From NCBI GenBank assembly GCA_002368155.1, contig AP018180.1:3536719-3600718 (forward strand): a stretch of DNA of 64,000 nucleotides, in the 5' to 3' direction. Position numbers and translations under genes: made by a program. The notes beneath the pieces were generated by a model. The model did not search any database. It was given only the letters and a program-made list of their open reading frames with translations, and had not been told where the DNA came from. This document shows positions 61,863 through 64,000 of the stretch, in pieces. How positions within the stretch are numbered: position 1 is the first letter of the stretch; the number at the start of each line of letters is the position of its first letter. Source of the DNA: Nostoc carneum NIES-2107 (GTDB lineage Bacteria > Cyanobacteriota > Cyanobacteriia > Cyanobacteriales > Nostocaceae).

Positions 61863-62912
61863 AAAAAGCTCAAATTAAATTTGATTTCTTGCCAAGTTTT
61901 GCTGGGAAGTCTGAAAGCAGAGTTCACCAGATTCAGTATGTCTATAGAGTGAAAAAATCTCAATAGTCGCCTGGTAAAGAACATCACTCATCGATATATA
62001 CTTAACATTTTTAATTTTCCTTTCTCCAGGTAAATAATTCAGTATGCAAACTCAATCAGCCTGTAATGATGGCTGATAATTTTATTTGTACCTACTTTGT
62101 CACATAACAGGTTATCTAAAACCTTCTGAGTAACTGCTGGGATCAAGCCTGTTTGAAGATTTATTTAAAGTCAGTATAGGTGGATTATGAACAATGGCGC
62201 GTGTTAGTTCTAGTCTTTGGCTTTGCTTTGTTCAGCAGAAATATTAGCTCCACATTCCGCATAATTTGGTTTGGGGAAAAGGGTAAAGAGGAAGGGTGAA
62301 AGATATCGTCTTTCTTTTCTACTCTCCCTTTATCCCTGAAATGTAAAGGTACGAGCACCCTTAGCCTTCTCCTTTTTTTATATTTATATTTTTGAGGTTA
62401 CTAGTATAAAATTCAGGATATTTTTATACTTGTCATCAGGTGTTTAATATCAAGCTACACTGGTAAAATTTAAAATTTTGCTGAAGAGTAAATCATCAAT
62501 CTCCAATGGTGATATGCTTTCTTCACTTCTATATAAAATAACTATTTCATAATAATGAATCATGTGCTTTTGATGCTGAAAACAGGATATTTGATATATC
62601 AGCACTATTGTACTATCCCTAAAGTGTGTGTCAAAAGTTAGTTAAATTTTATTTTTAAAAGCCTTAGCTGTATGTTTAAATAAATTACTAGTAAGCTCCA
62701 AAAGTAGACAATAAAATTTGAGATAATACTTTCTTAGATAGAAACTTTGCCTAAATGAGGATACTAAAAATATTTAAACAAGGCTAATACTATAGAGTAG
62801 GAGTTAAGCTTTGCCATGTTGATGTAATGATTGGCAAGTCTCATATTTATAGAAATTTCAAAAAATACAATTACATATTGGCTAGCAAAATATTTCTTGA
62901 ACAAACAAATAT
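61863..62912. other. 1-kb gene-free region upstream of the REC-HlyD gene
   Basis: AT-rich and without open frames of note. No clear RNA gene. A CCCTTT/CCTTTA low-complexity stretch lies at about 62310-62345. It probably carries the promoter of the downstream gene. Confidence 0.4.
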
Positions 62913-64000
62913 ATGATTAGAGTTCTGCTAGTAGATGACCAAGAAACTATTCGAGAATATTTAAGGTCATTGATTGAAAAAGAAACAGATTTAGAAGTAG
63001 TAGGAGTTGCAGAGAATGGAAAAGCTGCAATTATCAAAGTCGCTAACTTACATCCAGATGTCGTGCTCATCGACATGGAAATGCCTGAGATGGATGGTAT
63101 TAATGCGACAAGGATTATTAGTGAAAGATTTCCGAAGACGAAAATTTTGGTATTAAGTGGTTATGACAAGCATCAATATATTAACGCATCTCTCAATGCA
63201 GGAGCCTGTGGTTATATATTAAAAGACGCATCCCCAGAAGAACTAAGAGACTCGATTCGCCTGGTTGAGAAAGGCTATACTCAGTTAGCGCCTGGTTTAA
63301 TTAATAAAATTATTCCTCAGCAGCAACTATCTAGTTCGGAAATTTTTGATTTTCAAAAAAGTGCTGCATTACCGAAGCCAGGAATGCTACTCCAAGAAGA
63401 TACTCCGCTTTTATTAGATGTAATTCAAACAGACGAAGTTTTACCTCATACAACTCGTTGGGTAAAAGTAGGAGGGAAGTTTTTAATTGGATCTGTTGCC
63501 ACAGCAGTTATTTTATCTGCAGTTATTCAATATCAAGTAACTGTCAAGGCACCTGCGACTGTTCGTCCTGCTGGAGAAATGCGTTTAGTCCAATCAGCAT
63601 CAGAAGGAACTGTAAGAAGAATTCTGGTGAGAGAAAATCAGGTGGTAAATAAAGGAGATATTATTGCCACTATTGATGATAGCGAAATCCAAATTAAAAA
63701 AAGTCAAGTTCTAGCGAATATCCAGCAGAATGAAATGCAACTAATACAATTGGATGCTCAAATTCGTGCTGTAGATAGACAAATAAGTGCAGAAACAGAG
63801 CGAAATAAAAAGGCGATCGCAGGTGCAACGGCACAATTGCAGCATACAGAAAGAGAATATCAGCAAACTAAAGTTTCATTTAGCGGTCAACTAGACGAAG
63901 TTAGGGCAAATATTAAAATTGCCCAAAATGAATTACAAAAAGCAGAATTTGATTTGAAATCAATGCACGCGAATATGAAAGCGACAGAAGCAGCATGGAA
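62913..64000 (+). CDS. Response-regulator receiver fused to HlyD-type membrane fusion protein (partial)
   Basis: An open frame that runs off the right edge; 362 codons are visible. Residues 1-125 are a NarL-type receiver domain: acidic pocket D8/D9, phospho-acceptor D54 (LIDMEMP), S82 (LSGY) and K104 (LKDASPEELR). A linker follows (125-185), then a transmembrane helix (about 190-206). After that comes a typical HlyD/MFP N-terminal half: a lipoyl-like hairpin (EMRLVQSASEGTVRRILVRENQ, then VVNKGDIIATIDDSEI) and a long coiled coil beginning at about 262. No helix-turn-helix domain is present between receiver and membrane. The receiver should be cytoplasmic and the rest periplasmic. The start ATG is followed directly by the receiver, so the fusion is by translation. 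Confidence 0.85.
   Translation, partial: MIRVLLVDDQETIREYLRSLIEKETDLEVVGVAENGKAAIIKVANLHPDVVLIDMEMPEMDGINATRIISERFPKTKILVLSGYDKHQYINASLNAGACGYILKDASPEELRDSIRLVEKGYTQLAPGLINKIIPQQQLSSSEIFDFQKSAALPKPGMLLQEDTPLLLDVIQTDEVLPHTTRWVKVGGKFLIGSVATAVILSAVIQYQVTVKAPATVRPAGEMRLVQSASEGTVRRILVRENQVVNKGDIIATIDDSEIQIKKSQVLANIQQNEMQLIQLDAQIRAVDRQISAETERNKKAIAGATAQLQHTEREYQQTKVSFSGQLDEVRANIKIAQNELQKAEFDLKSMHANMKATEAAW

Follow-up and report, generated by a model that had tools for sequence, protein, structure and literature searches.

A NarL-type receiver fused in frame to an HlyD-type export adaptor in Nostoc carneum, with similar fusions on other cyanobacterial export adaptors

The right-hand end of the window (the whole stretch of 64,000 nucleotides analysed here, from contig AP018180.1 of Nostoc carneum NIES-2107) carries the first part of a gene that joins a NarL-type receiver to a complete HlyD-type adaptor in one frame. 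On balance we favour the reading that the protein is the inner-membrane adaptor of a peptidase-containing ABC exporter (PCAT), with the receiver placed before the usual short cytosolic tail, and that phosphorylation of the receiver would control the exporter at its cytoplasmic face. The features of the window on which this reading draws are the following.

62913..64000, plus strand: first 1088 bases (5' part) of the fusion gene, which encodes 658 aa in all and ends past the window at G000:C1:3601607
62913..63266, plus strand: NarL-type receiver, residues 1-118, with D8, D9, D54, S82 and K104 (Pfam, alignment)
63267..63458, plus strand: linker, residues 119-182; its final stretch, starting near residue 158, matches the short N-terminal segment of unfused adaptors
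63459..63524, plus strand: single predicted transmembrane helix, residues 183-204 (AlphaFold model, hydrophobicity)
63525..64000, plus strand: start of the periplasmic HlyD part, with a half-lipoyl domain at 226-255 and the first arm of the coiled coil from 257
61948..62260, minus strand: degraded 3' end of a gene for a C39-peptidase ABC exporter, with stops and frame breaks, corresponding to about residues 612-714 of the exporter of a related genome (G001)

The fusion frame opens with the ATG at 62913, four codons from an in-frame TGA upstream, and runs without a stop to the end of the window; in the whole genome (G000) the gene occupies G000:C1:3599631-3601604 plus the stop. A first-pass annotation of the window had described one uninterrupted frame with an intact NarL-type receiver, a linker, a transmembrane helix and an HlyD part, and this is borne out by the domain matches and the active-site set (D8, D9, D54, S82 and K104), all of which is present. 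Pfam places Response_reg at 4-115 (E 1.4e-28), Biotin_lipoyl_2 at 226-255 and HlyD_3 at 500-630, all above cut-off. The last of these was read by extending the sequence to the right, as that annotation had proposed, and the adaptor is complete, with a transmembrane helix, half-lipoyl domain, coiled coil, second half-lipoyl domain and barrel as in HlyD, EmrA and MacA adaptors. The NCBIfam model TIGR01843 (type_I_hlyD) gives 155.7 bits in two stretches, the cut-off being 208.65. There is one strong hydrophobic peak, at residues ~186-209, and the short N-terminus of the unfused adaptors is taken to be cytosolic. Pfam recognises neither a LuxR-type helix-turn-helix output or other DNA-binding domain nor a PilZ domain in the fusion, cNMP, C39 and ABC domains are likewise absent from the protein itself, and in its best matches the likeness to free regulators stops near residue 136. 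The solved structures nearest in sequence to the receiver include VraR, DesR and NarL, and those nearest to the adaptor half are 8dck, 7sgr and LipC (5nen). Because the AlphaFold model is only modest (mean pLDDT 71.9, pTM 0.40, receiver blocks 39-52, low confidence over the ~64 linker residues), the receiver assignment rests on sequence; the model carries no information on the adaptor ring.

Six of the eight genomes of the genus (own included) share this domain order in a single frame, and the other five proteins are 79-96% identical to that of the window; G005 and G007 are the two genomes without it. This agreement rules out an assembly or frameshift artefact or a chance juxtaposition, and in none of the six did we find a frameshift, or a stop codon or separate start between receiver and HlyD part, the signs of two separate genes that the first-pass annotation had named. 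Among the 98 genomes searched (own, genus, family and order), full-length matches occur in six, all within the genus; the remaining matches cover the HlyD part at no more than 56% identity, save for one fragment of 183 residues at 62%, and the few that extend further left do so mostly across stop codons. In a draw of 388 genomes from the order, with a cut-off of E 1e-110, only G000 and G006 have a full-length match; at E 1e-60 or 1e-110, queries with the fusion protein are blind to fusions on other adaptor subfamilies. Named records with the fusion are those of Nostoc linckia FACHB-104, Calothrix membranacea FACHB-236 and Calothrix brevissima NIES-22, and a scan for related loci returned six, of which three are fusions. 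Across the 15 pairs of the six fused genomes, dN/dS is 0.00-0.16 in the receiver and 0.19-0.39 in the HlyD part. The fusion is under purifying selection, and the receiver most strongly.

The most divergent of the fused genomes, G001, still has an intact peptidase-containing ABC exporter beside the fusion. Its island, lying between the flanking genes, consists of the fusion and, both on the minus strand, a 715-aa C39 ABC exporter (with ABC_membrane, ABC_tran and C39 domains by Pfam) and a GG-leader ORF. The GG-leader ORF (L041 7506-7751, minus strand), between exporter and fusion, encodes 81 aa with a repeated Pro/Cys-rich C-terminus and has no convincing relative in the seven other genus genomes (best E 0.003). 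In the other five fused genomes the fusion is intact, and the exporter was found only as a 3' scrap with stops or frame breaks, upstream of it. The left and right flank genes, which we take to be chorismate-lyase-like and DUF3352-like, adjoin in G005, G007, G008 and G018 (~0.8, 0.8, 0.3 and 1.1 kb apart, respectively); tblastn found no exporter in these four gaps and only two weak matches to the fusion, with E 0.017 (within the frame of the right neighbour) and 0.91. Most simply, these patterns suggest that the island with its exporter was gained, that the exporter was lost later and that the fusion was retained. An exporter did adjoin the fusion, on the left, where its remnant remains at 61948-62260. 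The expectation that the partner exporter and kinase would lie just beyond the window was not borne out on the right, where inspection by eye of the ORFs within 20 kb in G000 showed neither a C39 exporter nor a kinase. The ABC genes on that side are a 574-aa half-exporter ~12 kb away and a SufC-like gene, neither of the PCAT kind.

Among the unfused relatives, a PCAT of the same type is present in 25 of the 28 loci read with an adaptor of the fusion's subfamily, the other three being L048, with 20 kb to look in, and L051 and L078, both on short contigs. Several of these loci also carry a seemingly LanM-like enzyme (by eye; Pfam for L056 only). The TIGR01843 scan scored five candidates per genome among the matches listed and is no census. 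The adaptor gene of L048 (G000:C1:7526093-7527415; 447 aa), with no PCAT in the 20 kb read, is shorter than most of its relatives. At L070 (7040-9181), a PCAT adaptor has a different N-terminal extension of ~200 residues, with no Pfam match there, which is perhaps another cytosolic regulatory domain. A paralogous cluster in G000 (L047, G000:C1:4951000-4970900) comprises genes for a CHASE2 protein, a 228-aa protein with a partial receiver, an HlyD protein and a C39 exporter, and a 115-aa GG ORF. We had considered its CHASE2 protein as a kinase and the neighbour as a NarL-type regulator; this was rejected, since Pfam shows CHASE2 alone in the one and a partial receiver alone in the other, and no output domain was recognised in the 228-aa protein. 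L072 has a similar gene order, with no CHASE2 gene recognised.

The architecture extends past the genus. If the window's fusion is called class A, NarL-type receivers are found in cyanobacteria on six dissimilar HlyD-type adaptors (classes A-F), whose adaptor halves share at most ~27% identity or have no significant match to each other (class E and its subtype E2 share 35%). The receivers of the other classes are ~50-56% identical to that of the window. Pfam gives both the receiver and HlyD_3 above cut-off in the one member scanned per class B-F, both E subtypes included. Classes B and C-G were found via large open frames in receiver searches, and are therefore examples and not a census. The D/D/D/S/K set is kept in 32 of the 33 fusions tabulated, a table that leaves out two class B members missed by the motif (L224 and L225).

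Class B is a 760-aa receiver-HlyD protein on another adaptor subfamily (22% identical to class A in the HlyD part and 53% in the receiver), and is present at full length in all 13 genomes of genus g70. Its receiver was found in 14 further genomes of the family of g70, extending into the HlyD part in 13 and ending at a contig edge in L199; among the matches listed, no genome of that family is without the class B receiver, and 54 genomes without a match stand outside that list. Median dN is 0.089 for the class B receiver against 0.164 for the HlyD part (66 pairs, with dS partly saturated). In L177 and L179 the gene order is a SurA-like gene (by eye), a C39 exporter of ~1000 aa and then an unfused class B orthologue; the orthologous pair (exporter 58-65% identical) occurs in the three fused class B genomes read, with no adjoining HlyD gene recognised. 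The exporter of L175, in a class B genome, has cNMP, C39 and ABC domains by Pfam. Downstream of the class B fusion of G102 lies a chemotaxis-type-like cluster (L163 8483-18775; by eye).

In class C (L210, L211 and L212) the fusion ORF shares 14 bases with the ORF that follows it at all three loci, and this following ORF is a C39 exporter by Pfam in L210, the one scanned; plasmid relatives of the class C adaptor are partly annotated as NHLP bacteriocin system secretion protein. The class D fusion (L222 7413-9416) follows a cNMP-C39 exporter and has G in place of the phosphorylated D, which makes it a predicted pseudo-receiver. The remaining classes lie among genes of a polysaccharide type. Class E (five loci) is followed by a glycosyltransferase-like gene at all four loci with a visible downstream side (Pfam for L214 only), and class F (L220) by a sugar-nucleotide-dehydrogenase-like gene (by eye). 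In class G (L213, L216, L219 and L223) a NarL-type receiver precedes a Wzz-like protein (by eye), with glycosyltransferase-like genes around; Pfam is weakly supportive here, with GNVR under cut-off in two of the three scanned and no match in L216.

To place these receivers, we used a tree of 53 sequences that took in E. coli NarL and UvrY, paralogues from G000 and 22 of the 33 tabulated fusions (L234 and L235, missed by the motif, were left out). All 22 fused receivers group together with L243 in one clade (support 98/93). A single change between the tethered and the DNA-binding state is needed on the tree; with the longest branches and also class D removed, the split has support of 96/86. Constraining the 22 fused receivers to group without L243 is not rejected (AU p 0.49). 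L243 (270-1004) encodes a 244-aa protein with a receiver, a helical stretch and a C-terminal membrane helix, and no helix-turn-helix was recognised in it. Because the close DNA-binding receivers were chosen as best matches to classes A and B, and L243 was recoded after the tree had been seen, we regard the single tethered clade as suggestive. In an earlier receiver tree of 24 rows, with L023 a bad outlier, lineages A and B were not firmly joined (72/78). In raw identity the window's receiver does not favour fused receivers of other classes (up to 56%) over free ones (up to 59%). At D+2, a position that tunes phosphate turnover, 22 of the 23 tethered receivers have E and 18 of the 20 nearest DNA-binding ones have R, with mostly other residues in the 10 more distant free receivers; the tethered exception is V, in the class A receiver of G001, where the exporter is intact. 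The D+2 residue supports the putative split between tethered and DNA-binding receivers. Tentatively, and short of calling it probable, we suggest that the tethered receivers are a family split from DNA-binding NarL regulators in which the helix-turn-helix was exchanged for trans-envelope export adaptors, forming in cyanobacteria a phosphorylation switch that plugs into peptide exporters (PCAT and NHLP type) and polysaccharide export adaptors.

For the window's fusion, we envisage that D54 would be phosphorylated by a histidine kinase, possibly one of the HisKA_3 type; such a kinase is a likely partner because free relatives of the receiver (L006, L092 and L093) adjoin kinase-like genes that resemble this type (by eye). 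NarL-type receivers often pair on phosphorylation, and the phosphorylated receiver would then pair differently with the receivers next to it in the adaptor ring, beside the C39 and ATPase domains of the exporter. Receivers around the exporter could pair or part with phosphorylation, pushing on the C39 or ATPase domains, and the changed pairing would switch the assembly or activity of the export complex. Phosphorylation, dimerisation, gating and a peptide substrate are what we infer for this system. Since the neighbouring exporter has decayed, the fusion in G000 would need another one, for example one of the three intact short PCATs found elsewhere in that genome; two of these have an HlyD gene adjoining, and for the third no HlyD gene was recognised in the 19 kb read. 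The cytosolic tail of E. coli HlyD is described as having ~60 residues, of which residues 35-50 touch the C39-like domain of HlyB, a contact that secretion requires, with two HlyD per HlyB dimer (PMC10386944, citing Zhao et al. 2022), and the receiver of the fusion stands ahead of the segment that corresponds to this tail. We count in favour of phosphorylation control the conservation in six of eight genus genomes, the intact residues, the receiver dN/dS, the past PCAT neighbourhood with a GG-leader ORF in G001, the PCATs near most unfused adaptors, the overlap with the following ORF in class C, the tail contact known from E. coli HlyD and the recurrence of receivers on other adaptors. Against it count the loss of the local exporter in five of the six fused genomes, the somewhat higher dN/dS in several pairs of these five than against G001, the G of class D, the V at D+2 in G001, the low model confidence for receiver and linker, and the fact that inspection by eye of the ORFs beside the fusion gene in G000 revealed no kinase.

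The signal could also run in reverse, with the adaptor informing the two-component network of what state the exporter is in and the membrane-bound receiver acting as a phosphate sink or kinase tether at export sites. We consider this unlikely: it would agree with a fusion in which no DNA-binding domain was found, with L243 of the same clade being just receiver, helical stretch and membrane helix, and with the E-versus-R difference at D+2, but a sink needs no adaptor, and the pairing of receivers with six dissimilar adaptors, one of them overlapping an exporter gene, fits export control better.

It also seems improbable that the role of the receiver is to select the PCAT which the adaptor joins, or to direct assembly of the complex, and not to gate transport. 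A fusion that outlives its local exporter in five genomes must act in trans if at all, and both this and the three intact short PCATs of G000, one of them with no HlyD gene recognised in the stretch read, would suit partner choice, whereas in class C the exporter is encoded directly behind the fusion.

That the fusion in G000 is a decaying leftover of the lost exporter island is very unlikely. The exporter has decayed in five genomes, and among these the dN/dS of the HlyD part is 0.21-0.39, compared with 0.19-0.21 against G001 (whole protein 0.17-0.35 and 0.20-0.22, respectively), so that the higher values in several pairs may reflect a slight relaxation; however, the frame is intact in all five and dN/dS remains well below 1, in the receiver above all. 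A second product, a free HlyD protein from an inner start near residue 158, is scarcely credible and was rejected: this residue is M in the window's fusion and aligns with the start of several unfused orthologues, but it is T or I in the other five fused genomes.

Cytosolic add-on domains on exporters are already known from Alg44 and HetC, and the phosphorylation-controlled exporter that we favour would differ from both in its input. Alg44 of alginate synthesis (PilZ-HlyD; PMC4594306) likewise joins a signal-binding domain to an HlyD-type part, and its binding of c-di-GMP is described as required for polymerisation and export, but its input is c-di-GMP via PilZ and not the putative receiver phosphorylation of the fusion; among the cyanobacteria analysed in that source, no sequence is reported with both PilZ and HlyD_3. 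HetC of Nostoc PCC 7120, a cNMP-C39-ABC exporter, has an added cytosolic regulatory domain that is described as required in vivo, but this domain is on the ABC subunit and binds ppGpp (PMC10986499), whereas the fusion has a receiver on the adaptor. The cyanobacterial bacteriocin clusters of PMC3140520 similarly combine a C39 ABC transporter with HlyD and precursor peptides, and with LanM in some, but their HlyD is described as single-domain, and the text of that source mentions no response regulator, histidine kinase or two-component system. The HlyD of type I secretion shares with our adaptor a cytosolic N-terminus, one transmembrane helix and a large periplasmic part, although the cytosolic part of the E. 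coli protein is too short for a receiver (PMC10386944). NarL/FixJ regulators such as VraR and DesR have the same receiver fold and active site, but the output of the fusion is a transport adaptor in place of a DNA-binding domain. We found no report of a receiver-HlyD fusion among open-licence full texts, which is not proof of absence.

Two-component control of secretion is normally transcriptional. Receiver fusions recur on exporters of several kinds, an indication that cells can turn secretion on or off directly and not only via gene expression. If this is true, a receiver within the adaptor of an exporter would give an output that is immediate and local, as in Alg44 and HetC but driven by phosphorylation, and two-component signalling would have secretion itself as its output. 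An E at D+2 without a helix-turn-helix offers a simple sequence mark with which to find more tethered receivers. In Synechococcus elongatus, small GG-leader EbfG proteins are described as enabling biofilms (PMC9260433). Because C39 exporters handle GG-leader peptides, bacteriocin-like or of the EbfG kind, and other fused adaptors sit among polysaccharide-type genes, such receivers would link sensory kinases to communication and matrix production in cyanobacteria.
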